Part shown: one piece after another, positions 23,772 through 53,291 of the stretch | Numbering within the stretch: position 1 is the first letter of the stretch | How the letters are laid out: each line of letters starts with the position of its first letter | Assembly (NCBI RefSeq): GCF_000835495.1 | Contig: NW_015622541.1 | Location: 7,812,001-7,876,000 of the forward strand | Direction: 5' to 3' | DNA from: Cladophialophora immunda | Lineage: Eukaryota; Ascomycota; Eurotiomycetes; Chaetothyriales; Herpotrichiellaceae | DNA length: 64,000 nucleotides | Made by a program: the position numbers and the translations under genes | The notes under the pieces: generated by a model | Databases searched by the model: none | Told to the model about the DNA's origin: nothing | Seen by the model: only the letters and a program-made list of their open reading frames with translations

Positions 23772-25163
23772 ATGGATAACATCAGGCCCAAGTCCGGATT
23801 TCTTCCGGGTATCTTTGGCCATCGGAAAGGAAAATCAAGGACTGGAGCGACAGCCTCTGGGGAAGACGAGAAAATGAAGGGCCCGCAACCGAGCTCCTTT
23901 TTCATGAGGATCCCAAACAAGCCTCGAAACCATTTCATTGCCATGGCCGGCGAATTTGTTGGCACTTTTCTCTTTCTGTGAGCACCATCTCCCTGTCATT
24001 ATGGGTTGGGAAACTGACAACCCTCCAGCTTCTTCGCTTTTGCCGGCACGCAGGTGGCCAACACTCCACAAACAGTCACTGGCAATACGAGCACAGACCT
24101 CCCTCAAGGACCAAACCCTGTTCAACTCCTCTACATCAGCTTGTGCTTCGGGTTTTCCCTTGCGGTCAATGCTTGGATTTTCTTCAGAATTTCCGGTGGT
24201 CTCTTCAATCCTGCCGTACGAGAAGCGGAGCAAAAAGATGTGGATGATGGACTGACAGCATCGCAGGTCACCCTCGGTCTCTGCCTTATTGGCGCAGTAC
24301 CTTTTATTCGAGGTGCCCTTGTCTTCATTGCACAGATGCTGGGAGCGATAGCGTCCGCTGGCGTGGTAAAAGCACTTTTCCCGGGACCGCTGGCTGTAAC
24401 AACTTCTCTTAGTGGGGGAACAAACAAGGCGCAAGGACTCTTCATTGAGATGGTCAGTTTGTCGGCACAATGGATCTGGGGAGTCTTATTGACATATGTA
24501 TAGTTCCTCACCGCCCAACTGGTTTTCACCATCTTCATGCTAGCTGTGAGTATTCGAAAAGGCAATTGTATATTGCTTACTGACAGTTTCTCCACAGGCT
24601 GAAAAACATAAAGGAACATTCCTCGCCCCAGTGGGAATCGGCTTGTCTCTTTTCATTGCTGAGTTGGCTGGTAAGCCAGGTCCATTCTGCACAACCTCCC
24701 ACCACTAACAGAGCACATAGGCGTGTACTACACCGGCGGATCTCTGAACCCTGCTCGAAGCTTCGGCCCTTGCGTCGCCAACCACTCGTTCCCAAGTGAA
24801 CATTGGATCTATTGGGTGGGCCCTCTGCTCGGTTCGCTCCTTGCGGCCGGGTTCTTTTGGTTCATCAAGAGTTGCGAATACCAAACTGCAAATCCTGGGC
24901 AAGACTTCGACGACCTCGAGGCTTCTGCTTACAACCCAGAAGAAGACCTGACCCGTCCTGTCGTCAGTCCAACCGCTGTCATCCCTGACCGCGCTTTGTC
25001 CCGCACGTCAAGGACTTCCAAGGAAGAGAGATCCAGTTCTCTACAAGCAGTCCGGGTAGGCTCTGGAACAACAAACACTACTCTAGGCAATAATACAAAT
25101 GCCACAAATGGCAATGCCACAGTTCACGACAGGACTACTATTCCGAACCAATCTGCCATCTGA
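23772..25163 (+). CDS. Aquaporin / MIP-family channel
   Basis: Six exons (23772-23977, 24029-24215, 24267-24452, 24504-24545, 24598-24670, 24721-25163) give 378 residues. The two NPA boxes are seen: GGLFNPAV (residues 129-131) and [12 protein letters not shown] (from residue 241). Arg244 sits at the expected selectivity-filter position. Loop residues and [20 protein letters not shown] match fungal orthodox-type aquaporins. The N-terminus (60 residues) is basic and cytosolic; the C-terminal 100 residues are Ser/Thr/Asn-rich. The second intron (24216-24266, 51 nt) contains no stop in frame, so it reads as coding and splits the first NPA from its VTLG continuation. Water versus glycerol selectivity cannot be decided by eye. 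Confidence 0.92.
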
Positions 25164-33539: not shown

Positions 33540-34292
33540 TCAGACCATCTCGACGCCATCATCGTCCTTGTAGACCCAGTACGCGGGTTTCGACCCCTGG
33601 TGCATCCCACCCATACGGTACGCCAGGTGGACAAGGCTGGGACTCTTTTCCTTGGAGGCCGTGTCCGTCCCGACCCCGATCCACATCAAGGGTCGACTGT
33701 GGCCGTGGCCGTAGTCGGGCTGGATGAAGGGCAGCGCCGAGGTGGTGACCAGACACTTGACGTGGAGCCGGAGGAAGCCCCAGCTATGCCACTCCTTGAG
33801 GACGAAGGGGAAGTGGGTGCCGCCGACGATGTCGAGCTCGTACGCCGGGTTCTGCGCGCTCGGCATGGCCACCGTCTTCTTCCCCGTCCGGCCGTCCGTC
33901 CACGGGTAGATGGCCGCTCGACGCTGGTCTGGTCGCGCCGCCGTCCAGAGGTCGTAGTGCACGATGACCCCTTCGCCGGGCGACAGGAGCACGGGGAAGT
34001 CGTTAGTGATGCTGCCTCTGGCGGCACAGACGGAGGCATTTTTCTCCCCGTCCTCGCTTGTGTCCTCCTCCATCTCTGCCCCGGACTCATCGGAGTCATG
34101 CTCCTCACGCTGGTGCTCTTGCTCCTGCCCAGGATCTCCTTCCGGTTCGGGTGCTGGCTCGGGGAAGTTCAACCATCCGGACTTGATGCATGATCCTTCG
34201 CCGTTGTCTTCGACAGGCTTGTGTACTGCCACTGTCAAAGCCTCGATGTCGTGCCGGGCGTGGTCGACGTGGAAGAATGGAGGTTGAGCCAT
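33540..34292 (-). CDS. Unrecognised protein, paralogue A of a tandem pair
   Basis: The 250-residue protein begins MAQPPFFHVDHARHDIEAL, has an acidic disordered insert at residues about 45-85 (EPEPAPEPEG-type), then a folded-looking beta-rich part: GEGVIVHYDLW, NPAYELDIVGG, GFLRLHVKCLV, PLMWIGVG and a final AYWVYKDDDGVEMV. I do not recognise the family. There is no signal peptide, membrane span or catalytic motif. It aligns by eye with the next gene upstream on the same strand (35268-35948), so the pair arose by local duplication. The coding part is GC-rich compared with its flanks. Confidence 0.78.
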   Translation of the reverse strand: MAQPPFFHVDHARHDIEALTVAVHKPVEDNGEGSCIKSGWLNFPEPAPEPEGDPGQEQEHQREEHDSDESGAEMEEDTSEDGEKNASVCAARGSITNDFPVLLSPGEGVIVHYDLWTAARPDQRRAAIYPWTDGRTGKKTVAMPSAQNPAYELDIVGGTHFPFVLKEWHSWGFLRLHVKCLVTTSALPFIQPDYGHGHSRPLMWIGVGTDTASKEKSPSLVHLAYRMGGMHQGSKPAYWVYKDDDGVEMV

Positions 34293-35267: not shown

Positions 35268-35948
35268 CTAGAACCTCACGACCTCTCCCCCATCACACCT
35301 CACCTCCCACGCCCCCTCTTGTCCTGGCACAGCGCGGAAGATGTTGTCAGGGGAGTCGTCGACGCCGATCCAGATGGGGACGCCCTCGGTCCCGCCCCGG
35401 GCACCAAACTCGTCGTTCGCCGCCGCGACCAGCGCCTTGACCTTGAGCCTGACGAAGCGCGCTGGTTCGGGTTCAGCGTCGGCGTCGGCGTTTGCGTCGG
35501 CGCGAAGGACCGAGAACTCGACCAAGCGACAGCCCACGATCCGGATCTCGTGGGCGGGCGTGCCGGTGCTTGGGTATGCAGGGAACGTGATGGTTCGTGG
35601 TGCTCTGCCGTCGTCGCCGAAGCAGCAGCGGTCCGTCGACGCGTCGTTTTGGAAACGCCGCACACACGTCCATGCGCCGTGCAGGTGGCCTTCTCGGACG
35701 ACGACGCCCTTCCCGGCCGAGACGCATGCCGGGAACCGCCTCGGCGCGACCTCGTGGCCGGTGTGTCCGAGGTGGAAGAACACATGGGCATTGCCGGCGC
35801 TGGGGGCGGGAGCGGTCGGTTCGAAGGTCGACATGTCAACCCTGTTGTCTGGGGCGGATTGGTCGACCTTGCAAGACGGGTCGAGTTTGGGATTGTCCGC
35901 GTCGACTCCCTCGGAGGGTGGTGATGAATGGCTTGTGGACTGTGGCAT
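35268..35948 (-). CDS. Unrecognised protein, paralogue B of a tandem pair
   Basis: 226 residues. After a Ser/Asp/Pro-rich lead of about 50 residues the conserved part begins VFFHLGHTGHEVAPRRF, matching FFHVDHARHDIEAL of paralogue A. Later blocks also match: TPAHEIRIVGCRLVEFSVL, RFVRLKVKALV, VPIWIGVD and the end AWEVRCDGGEVVRF. Paralogue B has a Cys-containing middle (TCVRRF...DRCCFGDDGRAP) that A lacks, and A has an acidic insert that B lacks. No known domain is recognised. The coding sequence is GC-rich. Confidence 0.78.
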   Translation of the reverse strand: MPQSTSHSSPPSEGVDADNPKLDPSCKVDQSAPDNRVDMSTFEPTAPAPSAGNAHVFFHLGHTGHEVAPRRFPACVSAGKGVVVREGHLHGAWTCVRRFQNDASTDRCCFGDDGRAPRTITFPAYPSTGTPAHEIRIVGCRLVEFSVLRADANADADAEPEPARFVRLKVKALVAAANDEFGARGGTEGVPIWIGVDDSPDNIFRAVPGQEGAWEVRCDGGEVVRF

Positions 35949-38661: not shown

Positions 38662-40344
38662 CTACATGCCAACCTTCTCCCTGTGCTCCATGTTAACAGT
38701 CTTTACATGTTCTGGGTCTTCTTCGACTTCTCCCTCCACCGACAATTCCCTGGCAACACGGACGGTGTCGAAGATTGACTTGGACGTCAAGAAGATGGTC
38801 TCGATCTCTTCCAGCGAGCGGCCCTTGGTCTCCGGGTAGAGAAAGTAGACGACGACAAAGCCGCACAAGCTCATGGAAGCGTACACGATATAGTACCGCC
38901 ACTGGATGTGGTCAAAGCCGATGGGAGTGATCATGGCCAGCAGGAAGTTGAACGTCCAGCTGGTCGTCGCCGCCAGCGCGGTGACTTTAGCCCGCACCCG
39001 GAGCGGCGCAATCTCCGCCGCATACATGAACGGGATCAGGAAGAAGCCAGTGGGGAAAGTGAAGAGGGCGGCAAAGTAGAAGAAGAGAGTCGCCTTCCCG
39101 GCCTCAGCGCTGGTCAGGTCTGACGATAGACCAGCAAGACTGGTCTGGATCACGACAAACACGGCCAGAACCGTGAGCATCAAGACGCGGCGGCCCACGC
39201 GTTCGACGAGAAATACCGCGATCGTGGCACCGGCGAGGTGGCCAATCTGCAGACACCCCGATAGGATTCTCGACATAGATCCCGAATATCCCAGGCTCTT
39301 CTGGAAGATGGTGTTGGAATAGAAAGTGATGACGTTGGTCCCCGTCATTTGGGCAAACATGAGCAAGGCCATGGCCAACAGGGTGCGGTGCAGCTGTCGG
39401 TTTCTCGTCCTGGCAAAGGGATTCCGCGAACCGCTGGTGTCGTCGACGCTGTTTATGCTGGAGACCATAGTAGCCCGGATGAGCGAGATATCCAGAGCGA
39501 TCACGTCAGAATCGACGGTCGTGTCGTTCAACTCGGCCAGGACCTCCTTCGCATCTTCGAGCCTATCTTGCTCCACGAGCCAGCGAGGCGACTCGGGGAG
39601 CAGGAGGATCGAGCAGGCCACCACCAGCGCAAAGACGATCTGGAGAGAGACTGGAAATCTCCAGTTCGCCGACGACTTGACGTAGTAGAAGCCAAAGTTC
39701 ACCCACGTCGCCAGAAAGATGCCGCCGATGGCGAACATGCCTTCTAACAAGACGAGGCTGCCTCGCTGATTGGCATGCGAGCATTCGCTCACGTACATGG
39801 GAATGGTGGCCGTGAACGCCCCAACGCCCAAGCCTAGAGAGCGTGGTCAGTCTCCCTCGACCATGACCGTGCAAACATATCCGCCCTTACCATTGATGAT
39901 CCTGCTGACGATCAGCTGCCCGAGCGAAAATGAGGATGCTTGAATGACGGCGCCGATGATGACCACCAGGCTTGCCACAAACACAACTTTCCGTCTCCCC
40001 AGGATATCGCCCGCCACAAAGCACGACAATGCACCCAGCGCACAGCCGACTTCGTAGATGGCTACAGTCAGCCCTGCAGAATCATCAGCGTCTTCTGTGA
40101 AAGTCCCCATGCTCCACTCCTCACCTTGAAGGTTGGACCTTTCAGACGATTGGGCTGCAGTGGCGTGGATTGTGTCAATCTGTGGAAATGTGTGGGTGAA
40201 GGTATCGAGAGTGAGAAATCCATTCACGACGGCTTGATCATAGCCCTGGCACAAGAAGGCCAATCCCGCCAGCCAACCCACAAGACGACGAAGAGAGTTT
40301 CCCCTCAAGGAGATCCTACTAGTCACCTTCTCTGGAGTGCCCAT
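38662..40344 (-). CDS. MFS sugar-porter-family transporter
   Basis: Two exons (39891-40344 and 38662-39833) give 541 residues. Start 40344 has a strong context (CACCATGG) and lies about 70 bp downstream of a TATAAATA box; in-frame ATGs at 40404 and 40425 are alternatives. Twelve spans are expected. Sugar-porter signatures are GDILGRRK, PESPRWLVE, ERVGRRVLML and PETKGRSLEEIE. FLCQGYDQAVVNG resembles the first-helix YDQ motif of fungal hexose, quinate and lactose-type permeases. The substrate is unknown. It is divergent from the hydrolase and shares a promoter with a CGG-N7-CCG site. It is the likely uptake step of the cluster. Confidence 0.9.
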
Positions 40345-40411
40345 GGTGATACGCGAAAGTCCAGAAAGACTAGAGATGGGCAATGTCCCCTCCCCGACAT
40401 CCATGACAGCG

Positions 40412-40419
40412 TATTTATA
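40412..40419 (-). promoter_or_regulatory. TATA-box-like TATAAATA
   Basis: On the minus strand, about 68-75 bp upstream of the preferred transporter start at 40344. This favours 40344 over the two upstream ATGs. Confidence 0.5.
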
Positions 40420-40501
40420 ATTCATGGACGATCCCCAGATACCCCGGCCCAAACCCCGAGAACAGCATTGCGGAGATTGATATGCTAGTCATGCTGCAGG
40501 A

Positions 40502-40514
40502 CGGAGAGGTTCCG
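40502..40514. promoter_or_regulatory. Candidate Zn2Cys6 operator, variant copy (CGG-N7-CCG)
   Basis: CGGAGAGGTTCCG, within the palindrome ACGGA-N5-TCCGT, lies in the divergent transporter/hydrolase promoter. A second near-palindrome, GGAT-GT-ATCC, follows at 40519-40528. Arms are shorter than in the other three cluster copies. Confidence 0.5.
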
Positions 40515-40649
40515 TAATGGATGTATCCGTCCATCTCGGCTTCAGAGTCCGCTCACTAACAACAAACGGGAGAGAGACTGCAAAGAGACGAACCTAGAAA
40601 AGGCACGAGCAACAACGCGTGTGGCCTGACACAAAGGGCATCGACCAGC

Positions 40650-41753
40650 ATGCCTACAACTCCCCCAAAGCTCTACGATGGCGAAAGACTGGAGATAGTG
40701 CAAGGGCGGCCGGTGTTGTTCAGATACACGCCTGCATCACCCCCTCAGACTGCTCGACGCGAACAACCTCTCATGGTCTTTGTTCCTGGAGCTTGCCACT
40801 TGGCTCGAATTGCGTATGGCGGGCATATCGGCTCCCGGCCGTCTGACTTCCTTACATTTTGGTTGAGTCGAGCTGGGTTCAACGTTGTCGCAATCTCATA
40901 TCCACTGGAGTGTCTATCGTCAATCCTCCCCCCGACTCATGCTGATATAGGGATGCCTGAATGGGGGGACTTGACTGCTCAGACGGTCAGAATGGTGATT
41001 GAGAAAGAGGGTCTACAGCCTGAAGCCATCCTACTAGGCTGGAGCATGGGTGGGAAAATCCTGAAGTCCTTCATCCAAGCAGCTGAGCAGCGAGGCATCT
41101 CGGTGCCTCTGTTCATCTCTCTGGCCGCAACACCTGGCGGCATCACCGGCGTCCGTTCTTACCCAACGGCAAACCGGACAGAGGCCGGCTACGCCAGCAG
41201 CCCTGGCATCGAACATAAGTTTCTCTCCCAGATCTCGGAGCAAGAAAGGCTCAACGACTCACGCCCCATCATTCAGCGCGATATCTACCTGCAAGAGTAC
41301 TACGGGCACACACCAATTCGGCTCGCAAACTGGGGACTGACGTATACACCTTCGGGAACCTTCATTCAGGATGAATGGGAGGCTCTCCGGGATGCCGGCC
41401 CCGAGCAGAGTGACTACGCCAGATACCCGTATATTGGCGTCATCCACGGGACAGCGCCTTCGGATTTACGCCATGTCCTCGCTGACCGCGCGACTTGGGC
41501 GATGGTCCTGACGTACAAGCTCATCTCCGAAGTAGAGAGACGCATCCAGAAGCCAAATACCCAACAGTGGCACGAGTTGAGGCGATTCATCGATTCGGCG
41601 CCCGACAGGATGCGGTCCGTCGTCGAGGGAAATCACTTTTTCTTCCTGGGGGAGAAGGGCGCGAGACAGACGGCGGAGGTGATCAGTGACCTCGTCCATA
41701 GCATGGAAAGGCTCGACTCCGACCTGAGCAGGATCCTTGAGACCTCTCCTTGA
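40650..41753 (+). CDS. Alpha/beta hydrolase
   Basis: 367 residues in one exon. The oxyanion strand reads LMVFVPGACHLARIAYGG. The nucleophile elbow is GWSMGG with Ser132. A late His in VVEGNHFFFLG is the likely catalytic base, and YIGVIHGTAPSD offers the acid. No signal peptide. Family members hydrolyse esters, lactones or thioesters. In this setting, between a sugar-type transporter and an IlvD/Edd dehydratase, a lactonase or esterase step that delivers an aldonic acid is a reasonable inference, not shown by sequence. It shares the divergent promoter with the transporter. Confidence 0.85.
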   Translation: MPTTPPKLYDGERLEIVQGRPVLFRYTPASPPQTARREQPLMVFVPGACHLARIAYGGHIGSRPSDFLTFWLSRAGFNVVAISYPLECLSSILPPTHADIGMPEWGDLTAQTVRMVIEKEGLQPEAILLGWSMGGKILKSFIQAAEQRGISVPLFISLAATPGGITGVRSYPTANRTEAGYASSPGIEHKFLSQISEQERLNDSRPIIQRDIYLQEYYGHTPIRLANWGLTYTPSGTFIQDEWEALRDAGPEQSDYARYPYIGVIHGTAPSDLRHVLADRATWAMVLTYKLISEVERRIQKPNTQQWHELRRFIDSAPDRMRSVVEGNHFFFLGEKGARQTAEVISDLVHSMERLDSDLSRILETSP

Positions 41754-42103
41754 TGTAACGGGTCCAATATCCCGTCCCTCTCACCTCCAGTAAGGACACG
41801 ACGGATCAGATCCGTGGACGGCAATTTTGTCCCATGTTGGCGGATCTTGGGCCCATCGCTCGGGCAAGCATTCATTCTACGGCTTGTGTCTCACTGCATC
41901 GTCCCACAATTTGACGGATACACAAACGATACTATCAAGTCCTCTTGCCGGCGTCCTTGTTCCGGTCGCTTCTCAACCCTCCGAACAAATACACCTGAAC
42001 ATCTCCATGCGGCTAAGTAGAGCCAACAACTGACCCAGGCTCAGCGTGATCACAAGAAAGCTCCTGTGAAGGCCTTAGAGCGATCTGTTCAGTTCCATTT
42101 CAC
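41754..42103. promoter_or_regulatory. Promoter region of the dehydratase gene
   Basis: 350 bp between the hydrolase stop and the dehydratase ATG. It contains the perfect operator-like palindrome listed next and no gene. Confidence 0.55.
41802..41814. promoter_or_regulatory. Candidate Zn2Cys6 operator CGGAT-N3-ATCCG
   Basis: CGGATCAGATCCG, extending to a 15-bp perfect palindrome with outer A and T. It lies about 290 bp upstream of the dehydratase ATG. Confidence 0.6.
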
Positions 42104-44069
42104 ATGTCTGCCAACCAATCCAAGCCCGTCGACCCAGATTACCAGCTGGACTTAGCTGTGGTCACGAAATCGGGCCTTCGACAAGGCCTTACGTCGTACG
42201 GGGACGCGCATTTTTCTTTGTTCCTCCGAAAAGTCTTCATCAAGGCCCTAGGGTATAGCGACGATGCTCTATCAAGGCCCATCATCGGGATCATCAATAC
42301 CTACTCGGGCTTCAATCCTTGTCATGGCAATGCGCCTCAACTGATAGAGGCGGCCAAAAGGGGTGTCCAGCTGGCCGGAGGATTGGCCATTGACTTCCCC
42401 ACCATCAGTGTGCACGAGTCGTTCTCTTCGCCGACCAGCATGTTCCTTCGCAATCTCATGAGCATGGACACCGAGGAGATGATCCGTGCGCAACCGGTCG
42501 ACGCGTGTATCATGATAGGAGGTAAGAGGGCGAGGACTGTCCGACTGCCGGCCATTGTATTCTAACCACCCGCGAAAAAGGATGTGACAAGACCGTGCCC
42601 GCGCAGATCATGGGTGGCATATCCGCGAACAAACCTGTGTTGCCTCTGATCACCGGTCCCATGATGCCCGGATCCCACCAAGGCAAGCGCATCGGCGCCT
42701 GCACCGACTGTCGAAACAACTGGGCCGCGTTTCGATCCGGCCAGATTGACGTCGAGGAGATCTCGGCCATCAATGAGCAGCTCGCCCCAACGGTAGGTTC
42801 ATCTCCTGCACTCGAAGCGGCTAAAGCTCTATGTTATGCAGTGCCAGGGTTGACATCCCACAGGCCGGAACATGCGGCGTCATGGGCACCGCCAGCACGA
42901 TGGCATGCCTCACCGCGGCCCTGGGCCTGATTCCGCTCAAGGGAGCCAGTGCGCCGGCCGTGTCTGCACTTCGCCTGCGCATTGCCGAAGAAACCGGTCG
43001 CAACGCCGTCGCTGCCGCCGAGCAGAGGCGAACACCCCAGAGTATCTTGACCCGCGAGTCCTTCCTGAACGCCATGACGGTCCTGCAGGCCATCGGCGGC
43101 AGCACCAACGGCGTCGTGCACCTGATGGCCATCATCAACCGCCACCCGGACCTCCAGGGGACGCTCACGCTGGCCGACGTGGACGAGATCGGCAGGAAGA
43201 CGCCCCTGATCGTGGACCTCAAGCCCAGCGGGGACAACTACATGACCGACTTCCACAACGCCGGCGGCATGCTCGCGCTCCTGCACACCCTACGCCCGCT
43301 GCTCCATCTCTCGGCGCCGACCATCAGCGGGCAGACCCTGGGGCAGGTGCTCGACAGCACCCCGTTTCTGACATTCCCGTACTCGACCGAGATCATCCGC
43401 CCCCTCAGCGATCCCTTGCAGGCCAGCTCCAGCCTGGTCGTGCTGCGTGGCAACCTCGCCCCCGACGGCTGCATCGTGAAGGCGTCGGCGTCCAAGAACC
43501 GCGCGCTGCTCACCCACATGGGCCCCGCGGTCGTGTTCCACGACGCGGCGGACCTCGCGCGGCGCATCGACGACCCGGCCCTCCCCGCCACGCCGAATTC
43601 GGTGCTCGTGCTGCAGAACATCGGCCCCGTCGGCCACCCCGGCATGCCCGAGGCGGGCCTCATCCCGATCCCGCGCAAGCTGGCGGCCCAGGGCGTCACG
43701 GACATGCTCCGCGTCAGCGACGGCCGGATGAGCGGCACGGCCGGCGGGACGATCGTGTTGCACGTGTCGCCCGAGTCGGCGCGCGCGGACAGCGTGCTCG
43801 GCGTGGTCCGGGACGGCGACTTGATTACCTGCGACGTGGAGCGGAGGGCGCTCACGCTGGAGGTGCGGCCCGAGGAAATCCAACAAAGACTCAAACACGT
43901 TCAGGCGGCGCGGCTTGAGCAACAAAAAAGGGCTCGAGGAGAGCAGTCTCATTCGGCTGGTGCGGCGAGGGAAGCACGGAGGGGTTACAGAGGGCTGTAT
44001 GAGCGGTCGGTGAATCAAGCCCACGAGGGCGCGGATTTCGACTTTTTGACCGCGCGTGGACCGAAGTAG
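42104..44069 (+). CDS. IlvD/Edd-family dehydratase, sugar-acid type
   Basis: Three exons (42104-42521, 42581-42792, 42864-44069) give 611 residues. The three Fe-S ligand cysteines are in place: Cys73 (FNPCHGNAP), Cys141 (GGCDKTVPAQ) and Cys214 (AGTCGVMGTAS). The stretch HQGKRIGACTDCRNNWAAF and the C-terminal VSDGRMSGTAGGTIVLHVSPE place it with aldonate (arabinonate/xylonate-type) dehydratases rather than the mitochondrial branched-chain Ilv3, and no clear mitochondrial presequence is seen. The reaction would turn an aldonic acid into a 2-keto-3-deoxy acid. Exon 3 is strikingly GC-rich compared with the first two exons. Confidence 0.92.
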
Positions 44070-44241
44070 AGGGAGAATCAGCTTCCGGTCCGAATAGACC
44101 GTAGACCAACAGTGCCCACACAATCAGGGACTTAGGACAGTGCACGGTTCGGAAAATTTGGGTATTTTGGTGTTTACAAAGTAATTTGTATTTCTTGGCC
44201 GCCGCCCAAGACGAGGGCAAAAGGGAAAGAATTCCAGCGGC

Positions 44242-46758
44242 TTAAACATCTGACGTGAATGCGCCCCCAAGATCCGTCGTGGCGTTGAACTCGAACAGCG
44301 GTTGGTACTCGGTGAACATGCCGTCCATGGTCAGAGAGAGATCCCCGGCGAAGGGGTCTGGCGCGCCCACAAACATGGCCAGGTCTCCACCGCTGATGTA
44401 CGCGTCGATGGTCGAGCCGCCGAACCCGTCAGTGAAATCCGGCAGTTGCTCGCTGAGACGGTGCTGTCGGGCGCTCGGCGTCGTCGGGCTGAGAAGAAGA
44501 CTGGCCTGTTCGCGGCCCGTCTCTGCCTGGGACTGCACGTGCGACCTGCGCGGTCCCTCCCAATCTGCCACGGGTCGAGGCCGCGTCTGTCCTCGTTCGC
44601 GATCCTGCGCGCGCGGTGGCGGAGATCGGTGAGCCCCGTGTGTGTCGAGCAGATAGCGCACCGTGGCCGCCGCCAGCCTGTCGAGGCTGTTCCGGCTCCG
44701 GCGTGCCTCGGGCCAGTGCTCGCCCGCCGCGCTGAGCAGGTTGGAAGCGTCGCGCGTGGTGCTGGTGAAGGCGTCGAGGTGCGCGCCGGCCGCGATCTCG
44801 GGGACCGTCCAGATGCAGTACAGGATGGTCAGCGCGCTGAGGCAGACTGAGTGGATCGTGACCCACGAGTACGACATGCGGTCGGACTCGTACATTTGCT
44901 TCGCGAGCCGGATTGCGGCCTGGGCGCTGTCGTAGCACCGCATCAGCGAGACTTTGCTGGGGGTCCGGATCCGCGGCGTGGGTCGAAAGAGATGCATGAC
45001 CACCTCGTGGTACCGGATCTGGCAGATCATGGTCATGTACAGGTCCTGGTTCTCGAAGAGCGGGATCTGCGACTGGAGCGTCCCAAGACGCTCCCACATG
45101 TCGTTCTGCCACATCTCGATGTCGGGGATTTGGGGGTACGTGTACCGAGGGGTGTTGTGTGTGAGACTGTGCAGGACGTATTTGATCTCCGAGTTCATCT
45201 GTGCGAGTTGGAAAAGGACCACTGCACACGACATCGATCCTGCTCGGGCTAGACGAGGCTGTTGCTGATCATCCATTGGCGAGTTATCGTCAAGATCACA
45301 ATCTTCATGTCCGCTGGGGAGCTGCATCAAGAATCAGTCGGAAGTCACGTCGCGCGCGATGGAGAAGGTCCTTACGCGCAGGTCACAGGCCTCGTCTCTT
45401 AGACCGATCGGTCTGCCCAAGGTCGTCGCGAGGGTCCGATCTATCGAGTAAATGACCCAAAACAGTCGCGTTCTCATTTCTCGTTCCAAAGGGCCGATCG
45501 ACGGGCTGATGGGGACATCTCGCTGCAGACCCAGGTCCAGGACGGCAGCCAAGCATTGGTAGTTCAAGTACCAGGGATTGAGCCGCAGGAAAGGACTGTG
45601 CAGTGTGAACATGGAAAGGAGCAAGAGACACTGGACTCCCTCGGTGGAGTTCTGAAAGTCAATCTCGTCCGTGTACTGCATGGCCGACGTCGCGAGGCCC
45701 TCGCCCGAAAACGGAATCCTCAGACGTTTCGACAGAATGCTGGCCGAGATCGCGAGGACCATGGTGACCTGAAACCAGACCACGCGTGAGGCACCTTCGG
45801 GGTTGCTGTACAGGTCGTGAAGTTGACGGGAAAACGTCCCGCCGTGGAGGAAGGGATACTGGACGTGAATGTGCTCGAAATATATCTTGGATAACTGGAT
45901 GGCTTGTTCAAGCGATTTTGGTATTGGGGCTGGTTCGATCATAAACATCGACCGAGAGCTTGTTGTCGAGGGGGACTCGTGTGTGGTGCTGTTTTGAATG
46001 CTGCCAGGCACATGACTGCCGGAGAGGTCGGCGCGTGCAAAGACCAGTTTCGCAAATGACAGGCCGCTCGAGGGTCCGACATATTTGCTGATGCCGGCCG
46101 ACAGCGGAATGAGCCCAATCTCGTGGGCGATTTCGTTGCGACTTGGGTTTCGGGGAGGCGAGCTGCCGCCGGAGAGATTGGGACGTTCTCTGAGATTGTT
46201 TCTGGACGTTTCATCCACAGAGGCGGGCTCGACGTCTCGGTGACGGGAGAGGTTTGTGCTATGTGTGCTCGCAGCAGCCACTTCTCTCGGCGGTGGAGGC
46301 AGGTCTCCATCAGCAGCCACCAGACCCAAATCGAGATGAGGACATTGAGCTTGTAGGGCTCCTTCTAGACGTTGTATATGGCGATAGAGAGTAGCGGCCT
46401 CACTAGGATTGTGTTGGTGTTAGAAGATGGGCGATGCAGAGAAGAGTCAGCGAGCTAACCTCCGTGAGATGCTACCCTCTTGGATGGTCTTTTTCCCGTC
46501 GATGCATTGAGCGCCAGCACGGCGACATCCTGAGCACTGAGGAATATTCCCATCGCACTGGTAAACGGAGGTTAGCTGCTTGCCTGGATCTTCGTCCCTG
46601 GACAGGTCACGACGTACTTTGATCTTTCGGGTCTGGCAGCGCAGACATGCTAAGCGTACGCGCCGCGCTCTCGCCGGTCGCTGAGAACCATCGCCACTCC
46701 CAGGCACTTGGTCCGGGTAATCAGTCCTCGGCGGCCTAGAGGATGGCTCCGATGACAT
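44242..46758 (-). CDS. Zn2Cys6 transcription factor with fungal-specific TF domain
   Basis: Four exons (46618-46758, 46460-46557, 45376-46402, 44242-45321) give 781 residues. The binuclear cluster is canonical, Cys38-X2-Cys41-X6-Cys48-X6-Cys55-X2-Cys58-X6-Cys65, and is split by the first intron after KIK. A short coiled-coil-like EAATLYRHIQRLEGAL follows, suitable for dimerisation. The fungal_trans middle homology region lies at about residues 190-420 (FLHGGTFSRQLHDLY, LNYQCLAAVLDLGLQRD and RTRLFWVIYSIDRTLATTLGRPIGL). The gene converges on the dehydratase and diverges from the Dabb gene, with a perfect CGGAT-N3-ATCCG site between them. It is the probable cluster regulator, acting as a dimer. 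Confidence 0.9.
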
Positions 46759-46991
46759 ACGGAGCCTCCGGGAAACAGAGAATTGGCGACTTGGCGTCAG
46801 GCGTCGGGAACGGAGCCGTGACTGCAGAGCTGGGCCGGACTTGCTGCGCGTTTGAAAGAGTGTGAGAAGGATCGAGGCTGTGGAGGTGCCATAGACGGAC
46901 GTATAAAGTGAAGATTCACGTGATTTACCCCGTCTCGACGGAGGTGCCCCGCGGGCCCCGGTGAAGTGCGGGGTGGACGGCCCGAGGGAGA

Positions 46992-47004
46992 CGGATTGAA
47001 TCCG
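46992..47004. promoter_or_regulatory. Candidate Zn2Cys6 operator CGGAT-N3-ATCCG
   Basis: CGGATTGAATCCG in the 460-bp divergent region between the Zn2Cys6 gene (start 46758) and the Dabb gene (start 47219). Its position would allow autoregulation. The rest of this intergenic region holds no gene. Confidence 0.6.
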
Positions 47005-47218
47005 AAGCCAACCATCACTGCCTCTGGGACGACGAGGATCGGGTGGTTTGCCAGGTTTGAAGACTCACCTCGAGTGGTGTGAGTACTGAGAGGTGATTAC
47101 CTGGGAATGTACCGAGTTGCCAGTGTTGTCTTCCTCGTTGTTACGCAACCGTCACTCAACTGCCCTCCCGGAGTCGATTCAGCGTCAGTGGCCCCCCAAC
47201 ACCTCCAGCCTGCTCACC

Positions 47219-47708
47219 ATGGTGGTAGTACATATCGGCAAGTAAAATGAAGAACCCCTGGATCCCGCGTTCGTCATTCTCATCGCAGTCTTCATAGTGC
47301 TCTTCAAATTTCGCGACGACACCAGTGAGGCCACCAAGAGCGTCTTCCTCTCCGAGCTCAAGAAACTCAAGCAGCTGCCCTGTGTGGTCGACCAGAAACT
47401 CGTTGTCGGAGGGCCCTCGATCACGACGCCCGCATCGCGCAGCAAAGGCTTCCACTACTGTCTGCTAAGTTATCATAAAGACCGGGCTGCGTTGGATGAA
47501 TACCAGGCGAGTCCGGAGCATCATCAGTACGTTACCACTGTGGCTTTGGCACTTCGGTTTGCATGAGGTTGACGCCTTGTCCAGCGTGACCAGTACTTAC
47601 ATGTGGCCATTCAACGACGATCTGATGAGGTTCGACTTTGAGACTGCGGACGATTCCATTCTCGGCTCGACGGTTTCCGCAGCCCTTGCCTCCGTTGCTG
47701 CGTCCTAA
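47219..47708 (+). CDS. Small stress-responsive A/B barrel (Dabb) domain protein
   Basis: Three exons (47219-47237, 47298-47526, 47585-47708) give 123 residues. The start MVVVHIVLFKFRDDTSE fits the Dabb family opening, and SKGFHYCLLSYHKDRAALDEY...SPEHH matches the second half of the ferredoxin-like barrel. To get the canonical HIVLFKF junction, the first intron must use a GC donor (GCAAGT at 47238) with TAG acceptor at 47297. The tail after HVTSTYMWPFNDDLMRFDFE is short. Related folds include polyketide cyclases, olivetolic acid cyclase and rhamnose mutarotase, so a role in handling a cluster intermediate is possible. Confidence 0.8.
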
Positions 47709-48300
47709 AGGCGGTGTATTAAACCTCTTAGACTGGAATCCTGGGAGATACACTTCCAGTTGCTCCTAGAACTAGTGTATAACTACACACCGGCAAAGAT
47801 TTCGCCAAATTAGACATAGAAGATTCAATCGGGATACGACTCTTGTATTTGACATGATATTCCGTTAAAGCTATGTCCCGTTCAGACCTGCTAAATTTTG
47901 AATTCTCGTGGTTTATGGCCTGCCGCTTTTACGCATTACTGCATATACCGGAATTCTTGATGCTGATCAGCCCTTCTACTCTCGCAACTGCCCTTACCAT
48001 CTTCCCGACGGCCATACTTCTTGTTCTTCCTGCTGTTCTGAACAGAGAGCCAGACTGCGGTCACTTTAGAATTGGAATGGTACCGTGAGGGAACAATCGC
48101 TGGGAGGCTCACGTCGGAAATTGCTGATATTAACTACAGATAAGGATGAAAACCACTAGTATAACGCGCATTAGAAGACTACCTAGTTACGTCTCTGTGT
48201 TAAATAACTTTTGAGCCGCTGTCAAGGGACATCCTCCCTTCGATCCCCGGATGCCAAATGACACCAGAGAAAGAGCGTACGGCAAACAGGAGGGATAACA
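47709..48300. other. Intergenic region between convergent genes
   Basis: 3' flanks of the Dabb and Ldh2-type genes. AT-rich. No supported gene. Confidence 0.5.
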
Positions 48301-49365
48301 TCAACCCGTTAGCAATTGAGCCCCCACCATCTCGGCCTCTTTGTTCAAAGATTCCACCTCGGAAGTGGTATACGGGATTCCACTGCTTTCCCTCTCCTTC
48401 TGGGTCAGCTGCTCAATCTCGCCGGGGAAGTAAATCCTGTCGAAGCCCGGCCGCTTCTCACACCCAACCACTCTCTGATATAGATAATCCATCCTCTCTT
48501 TAAACTCGTCCAGCGAGAAGAAGAGATCCGGCTTGATGGCGACCAGGAAATGTCCCACGTCGGCCGGTTTCGACGGGTCGTATGGGTTTGTAACGTGGCC
48601 AGCGAAGGCGGAGCCGGAAAGCACGCCCGAAAAGACATCCATCATGATGGCGAGCGCGGAGCCCTTGGGGCCCCCCATGGGCAACATGACACCCTCGAGT
48701 GCCTTGGCCGGATCGTCGGTGGTCTCGCCGTTGGCGTCAAGCGCCCAGTCGAGAGGGATCTTCTCGCCTCTCCTCTTCGCCTTGTAAATTTTGCCTCTCG
48801 CGGCAATACTAGGTGCCATGTCGAGGATGAAGGGCGGAGCTTTACCAGCCGGGGCGCCACAGGCCAGAGGCGAGACGCCGACAAGTTTGTCCTTGCCACC
48901 CCACACGGGGAGGGCGGGCGACGAGTTCGTGAAGACCAGGGACATCATGTCGGCGGCGATGGCCTTCTGCACCACCCAGGCGGACATGCCGAAGTGATTC
49001 GAGTGTTTGACCGCGACCATGCCGATCCCATACACGCGGGCCATCTCGATCGCCTTGTCCATGCCCATAGAAGCGGCCAGGAAGCCGAACCCATTGTGGC
49101 CATCAACCTGGGCCACTACGGGCGTGGCCTCGTGGAGGGTGGGAATAGCGGCGGGATCAAGGACTTTCTGCCGAATGCGTTGCATGTAGGACGGAATCCG
49201 GTTGACGCCGTGCGTGTCGACGCCGCGAAGATCGGCGGCCACTAGACAGCTCGCCACGATGTGAGCTTGTTCCCTGGGAACGCCATTCCCGATCAGTACG
49301 TCCCGGGCGAATGCGAGGACTCTGTCGGCTGGGAAGGATTGGGTGAGGGAGGGTTCGGCGACCAT
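48301..49365 (-). CDS. Ldh2/malate-type NAD(P)-dependent oxidoreductase
   Basis: 354 residues in one exon. The non-Rossmann Ldh2 family signature is clear: ADLRGVDTHGVNRIPSYM near residue 45, GFGFLAASMGMDKAIEMA, then VAVKHSNHFGMSAWV at about 118-131 with the catalytic His, PLACGAPAG and GGPKGSALAIMMDVFSGVL. Members reduce or oxidise 2-keto/2-hydroxy acids (YiaK 2,3-diketogulonate reductase, ureidoglycolate dehydrogenase, sulfolactate dehydrogenase). Here it could handle a 2-keto acid arising after the dehydratase; that is inference. The gene is GC-rich and intronless, and diverges from the SDR with a perfect operator-like site between them. Confidence 0.92.
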   Translation of the reverse strand: MVAEPSLTQSFPADRVLAFARDVLIGNGVPREQAHIVASCLVAADLRGVDTHGVNRIPSYMQRIRQKVLDPAAIPTLHEATPVVAQVDGHNGFGFLAASMGMDKAIEMARVYGIGMVAVKHSNHFGMSAWVVQKAIAADMMSLVFTNSSPALPVWGGKDKLVGVSPLACGAPAGKAPPFILDMAPSIAARGKIYKAKRRGEKIPLDWALDANGETTDDPAKALEGVMLPMGGPKGSALAIMMDVFSGVLSGSAFAGHVTNPYDPSKPADVGHFLVAIKPDLFFSLDEFKERMDYLYQRVVGCEKRPGFDRIYFPGEIEQLTQKERESSGIPYTTSEVESLNKEAEMVGAQLLTG

Positions 49366-49807
49366 TCTTTGTGGTAAACTTGGTAGTCTTCGGAATGTGA
49401 GACTATCAGCTTATATCCCCGGCTCTGGCTTATGAATAGGCAATGGGTAATATTAGTGCTTCGAGTTTGTTGGACGAAAATGAGTCCAAGAAGTCAACAA
49501 ACAAAGGCGGCGTCCCGACGGGGGCGAGCGTCGGAGTTCAGCCGACAAATACGCATCCATACAGCGGATGTGATCCGGTTTGACGGTTACAACTTAGACC
49601 CCTTGATGCTGGGGCATTAGACTTGGGCTTGCCACTCTACGTCGGCCAGAATGGCGGGAAACCAGCAAAGGAAAAGGGGAGTGTCTAGAAATCTTGGGCC
49701 TTTCAGCACCAATTCCACAAAGAGGAAAATGCGAAGTACCACCACCAAGGAAGCAAAGGATCAAACGGGACTCTCATTTCCTGGCCCAACAACCTCAGAC
49801 TAGCAAC
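49366..49807. promoter_or_regulatory. Shared divergent promoter, Ldh2-type gene / SDR
   Basis: 442 bp between the two ATGs. It holds the palindrome listed next and no supported gene. Confidence 0.55.
49565..49577. promoter_or_regulatory. Candidate Zn2Cys6 operator CGGAT-N3-ATCCG
   Basis: CGGATGTGATCCG, about 200 bp from the Ldh2-type start and 230 bp from the SDR start, so placed to serve both genes. Confidence 0.6.
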
Positions 49808-50617
49808 ATGCACGACCTGACCGGCAAAATCGCCCTCATCATAGGTCTCGGCCAGGCATCCCCGGATGGATGGGGAATAGGCAGCGCGATCGCCGTTCTC
49901 CTCGCACGACAAGGCGCCATCATCTTCGGGGGCAACAGGAGCACCGACTCGGCAGAGATCACCCGGCAAAGGATCCAGGCCGAAGGCGGCACATGCGACG
50001 TGATGCAGACCGACGCCACCTCGTCAACGTCCGTCAAGGCGCTGGTGGCCGCCTGCCTCGCGAAGCACGGGCGCATCGACATCCTGATCAACAACGTGGG
50101 CAAATCCGAGGCGGGGAACCTGGGCGACATGGACGAGGCGGTCTGGGACGCGCAGGTGAGCCTGAACCTGAAGAGCGTCTACCTCGCGTGCCACAACGTG
50201 CTGCCCATCATGGAACGGCAGGGCGGTGGCGGAAGCGTGGTCAGCGTGTCCAGCATCGCGGGCCTGCGGTACATCGGGAAGCCTCAGGTCGGGTACGCGG
50301 CGACGAAAGCCGCCATCATCCACGCGATGAAGACGTCGGCGGTCACGTACGCCGGCAAGAACGTGCGGCTCAACACCGTCGTGCCCGGGTTGATGGACAC
50401 CCCGTACACCGAGCAACTGGCGGTCCGGTACGGGGCGGGAGAAAAGAGAGACGAGTACATGCGGATGCGAGATCGGCAGGTGCCGATGGGGAGGATGGGG
50501 GATGCGTGGGATGTCGCACACGCGGTGCTCTTCCTGGTGTCGGATGAGGCCAGATACATCACGGGCCAGGAGATCGTGGTGGACGGCGGCATCACGGCCT
50601 CGACGGGCAAGCCATGA
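49808..50617 (+). CDS. Short-chain dehydrogenase/reductase (classical SDR)
   Basis: 269 residues from ATG 49808. The open frame extends upstream to 49694, but MHDLTGKIALIIGLG is the normal SDR start. The nucleotide-binding glycine motif is a variant, GLGQASPDGWGIG, with a longer loop than TGxxxGxG. Other motifs are INNVG, the catalytic Ser in VSVSSIAG, YAATK (catalytic Tyr and Lys), NTVVPGLMDTPYTE, and a C-terminus ITGQEIVVDGGITAS. It probably oxidises a sugar, an aldonate or a 2-keto-3-deoxy acid at a hydroxyl; the substrate is not visible. It is intronless and GC-rich like its divergent partner. Confidence 0.92.
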   Translation: MHDLTGKIALIIGLGQASPDGWGIGSAIAVLLARQGAIIFGGNRSTDSAEITRQRIQAEGGTCDVMQTDATSSTSVKALVAACLAKHGRIDILINNVGKSEAGNLGDMDEAVWDAQVSLNLKSVYLACHNVLPIMERQGGGGSVVSVSSIAGLRYIGKPQVGYAATKAAIIHAMKTSAVTYAGKNVRLNTVVPGLMDTPYTEQLAVRYGAGEKRDEYMRMRDRQVPMGRMGDAWDVAHAVLFLVSDEARYITGQEIVVDGGITASTGKP

Positions 50618-51136: not shown

Positions 51137-53065
51137 TCACCAGACGTTGCCCTTGGTCTGCTTGATCTTGCCGACATTGACGTTCCTTATCATTAATACT
51201 GCAACAAAAGCCAAAGCCATAAAGGACGTTCCAGCTGCCAGCATACGAGTCTGAGCATAGGCATAGGCTTTCTGAATGCCAGTCCGGGTGGCACTGCCCC
51301 TGGGGTAGCTGAGTTGGGTGTCAAAGTCGTTGTATATGTCGGACAGGTTCGGTAGTGCGGACGCCGGAAGATACTTCTCGAGAGCCTTCTCAAACACGTT
51401 TGTCCAGATTGCTCCGGAAATAGTATAGCCGATCGAGTCGCCCACGGTTCCGGTGACGTTGAGTAAAGCGAGGGCGGCGGCGACGGATTGATGATCGACA
51501 GCAGCCAGAACGGCGAGTTGACAGCATATGATGAAGACAGCACCGCCAATCGAGATAAAGATCTGGGTCATGACGATATACCCGACGTACGGGTCCGGGT
51601 TCCGGAAATAGATCATCAGGCCTTGGGCGAAAATATAGAGCGGTACAGCAATCCACAAGAGCCACTTGAAGTATCCCGTCTTGCGGATGCCGTAGCCGAC
51701 ACAGAAGAGAAGGAAGCCAGAAACGACGCTGAAAGTGTTGTTGACGTAGCCGGCCTCTGCGACAGTAAGGTAGTTGACCACCTGGAGGAAGGAAGTAAAG
51801 TAGCTGTTCCAGCAGTAATAGGAAATCTGGTAGACAAAGTCCAGAAGACAGGCGCCCATGAGGGTTCGGTCGGTCAAGAAATTGAACCTCATAAACGGAA
51901 CGGGCGCCCAGAAGAGCTCGTTGAGGACAAAGGCCACCAGCAGCACGAATCCAACCACAATCATGGCAATAATGTAGCCCGTTGCCCAGCCGTCAGGAGC
52001 GATGGAAGCAATGTTGAAAGGGAGGAGGAAAATGATCAAGCCGGCGGCGAAGAGGAACACACCGAGAACTGTATAAGACGTTAGCAGGGCTTGGAGTCAT
52101 GGGCTTGGTTGAAGTGTACCATCGAATTCTTTAGTGTAGTACCATATACTCTCCGTCCAGGTTCGGCCACTCGCCACTCTCTCCTTCAACAGACCCTGCT
52201 TTTTAGCCTTGCGGAGGTTGTAGCTCAACACGAAATACAACGGAGCGCAGACAATAGGCGTGATAAAGGCGTAGGTGGCGTAGCCCCAGGACCAGCCAAT
52301 ATCGGCGAGCATTCGATCGGAAGCGTATGACCCAGCAAAGGCCGAGATCATGTAGGGGGATGAGGTGAAGGCGTAGGCCAGAGCTCGAGTCTTGAGTGCG
52401 GTGGCATCAGCTGTGACGACGTCGATGCTGTAAATAAGACCGGTGAAACCAACGCTGTAAAATACCTAAGAGGGTTCCAGTCAGTATGCTGCGTTGAACT
52501 ATGACGAGGGAGAGCTTCTATCACTTACATTGGCAGCACAGTAGGTCGACAGGTTGTGACTGACCGCCATGAGGATCAGACCGAGCTCGCAGAAGCCTAC
52601 CATAGTCAGATACCCCTCGGCGCGGCCCCAGATGTCCAGAGCCTTGGCCAACGGAATGAAAACTGCGGCGGTCATGGAGCTGGAGACGACACCAATGACG
52701 GTCAGGAGCGAGTGCGAGTCCCAGGCGCTGGTGACATATGGCGCAAAGTTGCCGATGGTCGAGCCTTGGAAAGCATTCAACAGGTATACCAACCACATGC
52801 CGACAAAGGCGCAGATCAGAGACCTCTTGGACCAGACGATCGAAGTCGCCTCCATGGCCTGGACACCAGCTTGAGCATCTTCAGTCGGGGCTTCTTCTTC
52901 GAGTTTCTGCTCCATATCCGTTGTCATGGTGGTTTTGGGCAATACGTTGCTTTCGAGGTTCTTGTCGTCGGCCGGCACCATATTGATACCATCGACATCG
53001 GAGGGCTGGGCGGCCACTTCATCTGCCTGGCCAGCACGGTTTCTGAATCGATGCAAAACATCCAT
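51137..53065 (-). CDS. Siderophore-iron transporter (SIT/MirB-type MFS)
   Basis: Three exons (52529-53065, 52120-52465, 51137-52068) give 604 residues, with about 14 spans. A hydrophilic acidic N-terminus of 80 residues precedes the first span (SLICAFVGMWLVYLLNAFQ). The SIT-family hallmark is in the middle: PFMRFNFLTDRTLMGACLLD, then YQISYYCWNSYFTSFLQVV and AGYVNNTFSVVSGF. Proteins of this type import ferric siderophore chelates at the plasma membrane or in vesicles. An iron-GATA-type site ATCAGATAA lies 154 bp upstream of the ATG. It ends next to the catabolic cluster but has a different promoter signature, so it may be independent. Confidence 0.9.
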
Positions 53066-53218
53066 GGCTGATTTGGAAGGAGAAAGGAGCAAACTGACAG
53101 AGCTGCAGCGGTGGGCCTACCAGGGCTGCAGCTGGCGTCTTTATACCTCGTGCATCTGGCCGGGAGCACGAGGCCAAGCAGTCTGCGAACCGAGACAAGC
53201 CCGATGCAGTAAGGACGG

Positions 53219-53227
53219 ATCAGATAA
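53219..53227 (+). promoter_or_regulatory. Iron-responsive GATA-type site ATCAGATAA
   Basis: Matches ATCWGATAA, the extended motif bound by fungal iron regulators of the SreA/Urbs1 class, located 154 bp upstream of the siderophore transporter ATG. Confidence 0.6.
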
Positions 53228-53291
53228 GATGAAAATTCTGTTTGTCTGGTGCTCGGCGAGTGGGTTATGCTGGGATATGCTGGGCTGGGAT

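Follow-up and report, generated by a model that had tools for sequence, protein, structure and literature searches.

In a 64,000-nucleotide stretch of the Cladophialophora immunda genome (hereafter the window, contig C1:7812001-7876000 of a 42.2-Mb assembly), the promoter regions of a seven-gene cluster share an inverted CGG repeat, CGGA(T)N3(A)TCCG, and we consider it likely, with a probability of about 0.8, that this element serves as operator for the cluster's own Zn2Cys6 regulator, a protein predicted to act as an autoregulating, pathway-specific homodimer. The other six genes encode a sugar transporter, an alpha/beta hydrolase, an IlvD/Edd dehydratase, a Dabb protein, an Ldh2 enzyme and a short-chain dehydrogenase (SDR); an earlier note made from the sequence alone had named the cluster, and Pfam scoring of gene models rebuilt by hand bore out all seven genes. 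The homodimer would set one zinc cluster on each CGG of the inverted repeat, with the triplets seven bases apart; because three divergent promoters and a single one carry sites, all seven genes, the regulator's own included, would come under its control. We infer binding by the regulator, its homodimeric state, the direction of regulation, the inducer, the substrate and the pathway.

Exactly three matches to CGGATN3ATCCG occur in the window, at 41802, 46992 and 49565, and the four strings reported in the earlier note, these three and a variant at 40502, are all present where it had placed them. The centre of the palindrome CGGATCAGATCCG (41802..41814) precedes the ATG of the dehydratase gene by 296 bp; that of CGGATTGAATCCG (46992..47004) is 240 and 221 bp away from the ATGs of the regulator and Dabb genes, respectively, and that of CGGATGTGATCCG (49565..49577) 206 and 237 bp away from those of the Ldh2 and SDR genes. 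The variant CGGAGAGGTTCCG (40502..40514), whose centre is 164 and 142 bp away from the ATGs of the transporter and hydrolase genes, departs from the 13-mer at 2 of its 10 fixed bases and retains the core CGGA-N5-TCCG. In the three divergent promoters the centre of the site thus falls near the middle between both ATGs. The core is present in all four promoter regions of the cluster (1,557 bp in total), and it is the sole 4-base inverted-repeat family, among spacings 0-14, found in all of them; the window holds six copies, the four promoter sites and those at 23795 and 43699, whereby both tail-to-tail regions in the cluster are free of the core.

When the flanks are ignored, CGG-N7-CCG occurs six times in the four promoter regions, compared with zero to three times for every other spacing from 0 to 15. 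The two further copies are CGGAGGTGCCCCG at 46939..46951, which is without the A/T flanks, and CGGAGTTCAGCCG at 49532..49544, 33 bp before the palindrome at 49565. The expectation for the four regions is 0.40, based on control loci consisting of twenty 9.9-kb stretches of the same genome; since these loci had been picked for holding an N7 site (74 N7 pairs against 33-68 for each other spacing), the N7 expectation was taken as the mean of the other spacings.

The regulator gene (44242..46758, minus strand) comprises four exons (46758-46618, 46557-46460, 46402-45376 and 45321-44242) encoding 781 aa. Its spliced model contains the zinc cluster CLRCQTRKIKCDGNIPQCSGCRRAGAQC, with the pattern C-x2-C-x6-C-x6-C-x2-C-x6-C spanning intron 1, and the spliced first half scores 38.2 bits for Zn_clus (cutoff 21) and 72.4 bits for Fungal_trans (cutoff 23). 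The regulator of the earlier note therefore stands as a protein with a canonical Zn2Cys6 domain and a Fungal_trans domain. The lysine within its R-K-I-K aligns with the K-K-L-K of Gal4, where Lys18 contacts CGG according to an excerpt of PMC5559640. Among the 120 homologues listed, 93 have the Zn2Cys6 pattern in their first 200 residues, 90 of these domains are equal in length, and all 90 keep both the aligned lysine and the signature R-C-Q-x-R-K-I, which the window regulator also carries. Genera represented among the listed homologues with this signature include Penicillium, Aspergillus, Fusarium, Xylaria, Cadophora and Lipomyces. Names of purine-utilization regulators, such as 'positive regulator of purine utilization', are attached to at least 8 of the 120. 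A search of the literature by name, in which papers were not searched by sequence, turned up no characterised member of this group, and viral contigs scanned with the regulator homologue of Exophiala dermatitidis (P0001) gave no match. The 27 listed homologues lacking the Zn2Cys6 pattern include the ten closest relatives listed (P0001-P0010), which have only PF04082 in Pfam, and two of these (P0001 and P0003) showed no N-terminal zinc cluster when read. In the window, intron 1 (46558-46617) splits the zinc cluster, and we suspect that the gene models of the closest relatives may miss such an intron-split domain.

A pattern scan of all 42.2 Mb located CGGATN3ATCCG at 32 places, three of them inside 7.8 kb of the cluster, and the 29 copies outside the window were inspected, 20 with about 9.9 kb of context and 9 with 301 bp. 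One of them, CGGATGCTATCCG, lies 487 bp upstream of the ATG of the regulator's closest paralogue among the matches listed (C4:1097449-1098581), which is 42% identical in the body and 50% identical in the DNA-binding part and has the R-C-Q-x-R-K-I signature. A second core site of the form CGGA-N5-TCCG, CGGACAGCATCCG, lies 46 bp upstream of the same ATG. The upstream region is about 920 bp long, up to a divergent DJ-1/PfpI gene whose start was read by eye; the chance that one of the 29 outside copies falls into it is 6e-4, and that of two core sites is 8e-5. That a Fungal_trans gene lay near this copy was known before the paralogue search; its rank as closest paralogue came from that search, whose query was 388 residues of the regulator that cover the zinc cluster and reach into the body; 106 of 206 candidates were scored, and a gene could take up several of the 81 rows listed. 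In C4:1091900-1101800, the paralogue is flanked by the DJ-1/PfpI gene on one side and a gene for an aldehyde dehydrogenase on the other, and this neighbourhood is possibly a second small cluster.

The check for sites among the listed paralogue matches covered the C4 paralogue, the next three matches (C3:4983579, C3:5553658 and C2:2174921) and an additional match of the domain at C4:3999633. In the 1.4-1.9 kb read at the DNA-binding exons of these last four, no CGG-N7-CCG was found, and their domains are without R-C-Q-x-R-K-I. A CGGA-N4-TCCG (CGG-N6-CCG), one base narrower than the cluster's element, is seen where a more distant Zn2Cys6 gene starts, at position 798 of the sequence read there (C3:4984400-4985900). 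We propose tentatively, at somewhat less than even odds, that the R-C-Q-x-R-K-I subfamily has a code of its own, inverted CGGA(T) at N7, which is kept by paralogues, so that the sugar-acid cluster and the C4 neighbourhood can be cross-wired.

An alternative is that the elements are true operators whose main binder is another factor, with the C4 paralogue or some other Zn2Cys6 protein controlling both clusters, or with the two paralogues cross-regulating. Since both paralogues share the signature, and the C4 promoter contains the same sites, a shared specificity is likely. However, three of the 32 genomic copies gather around the in-cluster regulator, whose own promoter holds one of the three, and the simplest reading is therefore that the element is this regulator's own operator; we regard another main binder as improbable, though it is the alternative that fares best.

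That a GC-rich inverted repeat recurred three times near one regulator by coincidence is, in our estimate, very unlikely. The earlier note had held the 13-mer to be rare by chance, and this was upheld: the window has three exact copies against a mean of 0.10, and a largest count of 1, in 100 dinucleotide shuffles. The post-hoc choice of the motif was controlled by counting, in 500 shuffles, every family of inverted repeats with 5-base arms and a spacing of 0-14 that reaches three copies within 10,274 bp. The window contains two such triple families, CGGAT/N3 and TCGAC/N12, and the shuffles contain a mean of 0.114, with at least one in 50 of 500 and at least two in 5 of 500. That a tenth of the shuffles hold a triple, and that the window has a second, unexplained one, speaks for coincidence, and at about 0.1 for any family the unrestricted test is only suggestive. 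It becomes strong, at about 0.004, once restricted to families beginning with CGG, because this restriction is what the biology predicts; only two such triples arose in all 500 shuffles. The second family, TCGAC-N12-GTCGA, has five copies in the window (3992, 32352, 35863, 37536 and 45948), three of them within 10.3 kb.

Coincidence is further opposed by the placement of the sites, by the excess of the N7 spacing irrespective of the flanks, and by the two core sites in the promoter of the C4 paralogue. All three 13-mers fall within the four promoter regions, an outcome with a chance of 0.35%, given that these regions account for 15% of the reported span; CGGA-N5-TCCG in all four regions has a chance of about 7e-10 (from 564 per 42.2 Mb), before correction for motif choice; and about 0.0005 triples this tight are expected from 32 random places in the genome. 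The site set is real and well above chance. Matches to the 13-mer with up to two mismatches are no more frequent in the window than expected (30 against 32.2), and a partial site, CGGATCAGATAAG at 53216-53228, is within this chance level; it precedes a neighbouring MFS gene (51137-53065, minus strand) by about 150 bp, and its first 10 bases are identical to those of the 41802 site.

Several observations count against the operator reading, and the genome-wide frequency, which also favours coincidence, is the first. The pattern scan proposed in the earlier note, which had named a background frequency as grounds for refutation, returned just such a number: 32 places for N3 against a mean of 29.1 for each other spacing, (440-32)/14, where 440 is the count for spacings 0-14 together. 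The backward pattern used as a control, which differs in base composition from the real one, gave 15 places for N3 and 306 for spacings 0-14, and 790 places for the core against 564 for CGGA-N5-TCCG. Among the 29 outside copies, 16 lie in open reading frames (13 of the 20 with long context in a frame of at least 120 codons, 3 of the other 9 in a frame without a stop over the whole 301 bp), and many of these copies are therefore probably background. Within the cluster, the core site at 43699 falls inside the coding sequence of the dehydratase, and the 40502 site, with its two mismatches, is a weaker variant; the claim of one palindrome for each promoter region accordingly stood for the core, which reaches all four regions, and not for the full palindrome in the fourth. 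Finally, a place coding for RCQRRKI at C1:2614454 has no CGGA-N5-TCCG between C1:2604199 and 2694318, so the signature alone does not predict an autoregulatory site; the scan for such places left out some codon choices and the window's own gene.

Since N3 is not above the other spacings genome-wide, the palindrome does not mark a broad regulon, and this possibility was rejected. The count does not exclude a regulator of few targets, with which a background number is compatible, and because the local triple and the sites of the C4 paralogue remain unexplained by background, we read it as pointing to a narrow, pathway-specific regulon and not as a refutation. Outside copies beyond long open frames lie close to a Zn_clus gene (L020), an SDR gene (L027) and a GH30 gene (L033), and further non-coding copies are near genes for a multicopper oxidase (L028), a P450 (L037) and a PLP enzyme (L024).

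That the palindromes are non-functional leftovers of promoters duplicated while the cluster was being assembled, as the six of seven genes in divergent pairs with a near-central site in each might suggest, is hardly credible: flank identity is 12-20 of 60 across all 15 site pairs, no more than chance, so duplication does not explain the sites, and the longest words common to the promoter regions are 8-11 bases, none of them the palindrome.

The seven genes look like a transporter and the enzymes for breaking down a sugar or sugar acid by a non-phosphorylative route. The sugar-porter MFS transporter (38662..40344, minus strand) has two exons (40344-39891 and 39833-38662) encoding 541 aa, with Sugar_tr PF00083 on both parts. 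The intronless alpha/beta hydrolase (40650..41753, plus strand, 367 aa) is weakly supported by Pfam, with Abhydrolase_6 at 23.7 bits and thus below the cutoff of 26.3, and matches CLAIMM_11697 of Cladophialophora immunda from end to end at 99% identity. The IlvD/Edd-type dehydratase (42104..44069, plus strand, 611 aa) has three exons (42104-42521, 42581-42792 and 42864-44069) and scores 327.8 bits for ILVD_EDD_N; it resembles sugar-acid dehydratases, its nearest solved relatives being 8ej0 (dihydroxyacid dehydratase), 5j83 and 9evv (L-arabinonate dehydratase). For its last-exon frame alone, the NCBIfam matches were all under their cutoffs. A paralogue of the dehydratase, 68% identical, is located at C3:2720210-2721424 of the same genome. 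The Dabb-domain protein (47219..47708, plus strand, 126 aa; PF07876, 50.9 bits) is encoded by three exons (47219-47237, 47289-47526 and 47585-47708), of which the first intron (47238-47288) is apparently GC-AG. The Ldh2-family malate/L-lactate-type dehydrogenase (48301..49365, minus strand, 354 aa) scores 429 bits for Ldh_2 PF02615, and the SDR (49808..50617, plus strand, 269 aa) scores 190.6 bits for adh_short_C2 in the frame from 49694, with 5jc8 as its nearest solved relative.

In the proposed route the SDR would carry out an oxidation, the hydrolase might open a lactone, the IlvD/Edd enzyme would catalyse a dehydration, and Ldh2 would act on a 2-keto acid; no aldolase is present among the seven genes. 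Six plasmid-borne bacterial neighbourhoods of relatives of the SDR, Ldh2 and hydrolase gave no clue to the substrate. Elsewhere in the window, the neighbouring frames 33540-34292 and 35268-35948 (minus strand, 250 and 226 aa) are similar by eye and apparently paralogues.

Contig sizes in other genomes suggest that the regulator-enzyme cluster may be conserved in relatives, because the regulator and Ldh2 matches lie on contigs of equal size in two Exophiala species, E. dermatitidis (1,978,920) and E. bonariae (316,699), where their locus tags are consecutive (LTR84_010252 and LTR84_010253), and the hydrolase and Ldh2 matches in a further source also lie on equal-size contigs (97,282).

It is textbook knowledge that Zn2Cys6 dimers sit on inverted CGG pairs and that the regulator gene lies inside the cluster that it controls or next to it. 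Cluster-specific regulators of this kind, of the Gal4 class or GliZ-like in secondary metabolism, are comparable to the present case in the in-cluster regulator, the shared promoter palindrome and the likely autoregulation, but differ in target genes and spacing. PPR1 and UaY, regulators of the pyrimidine and purine pathways, bind CGG-N6-CCG, and PPR1 (1pyi) provides the nearest solved DNA-binding domain to that of the regulator, with an E value of only 1.4e-4; unlike in those systems, CGG-N6-CCG is found in none of the four promoter regions and no purine genes are among the seven. CGG pairs are also described as Zn2Cys6 targets in the excerpt of PMC5559640. The nearest functional parallel is provided by RhaR/PDR-1, the L-rhamnose regulators of Aspergillus nidulans and Neurospora crassa, for which the accessible part of PMC5469009 gives CGG-X11-CCG with TCGG arms and a pdr-1 locus tag (NCU09033) adjoining lra3 and rha1. 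As far as that part of the source goes, they are likewise Zn2Cys6 proteins of a non-phosphorylative sugar pathway, with an inverted CGG repeat and sites in their own promoter; they differ in spacing, the arms here being CGGA(T) at N7, and CGG-N11-CCG occurs in none of the four regions. The neighbouring lra3 is presumably a dehydratase gene. The L-fucose regulator FUR1 of Trichoderma reesei, which in the accessible part of PMC12370193 binds CCGACGG, is likewise sugar-responsive and serves a pathway of the dehydrogenase-dehydratase type, whereas CCGACGG is found in only one of the four regions here.

As shared motif, the operators of FUR1, RhaR, UaY, Put3, GaaR, XlnR, AmyR, Leu3 and Aro80 were rejected, since none is present in all four promoter regions; that of Put3 occurs in two and the other eight in one or none. 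Inverted CGG-N7-CCG is absent from the two motif tables in the accessible parts of PMC5468973 and PMC12941744, the latter giving CCG-X7-CCG for Aro80, and it was not found in the literature searched under six spellings such as CGGN7CCG, a search that bracketed notation would escape. The N7 spacing is thus possibly new for a widespread Zn2Cys6 subfamily, one base wider than the spacing of PPR1/UaY, while the type of regulator and operator is itself known. We contend that the element and the regulator form a candidate pair that is testable and relevant to a widespread fungal Zn2Cys6 group, given the signature in 90 homologues. If the code held across this group, the targets of many such regulators would become predictable, and the substrate of this cluster could be found via the inducing sugar acid.

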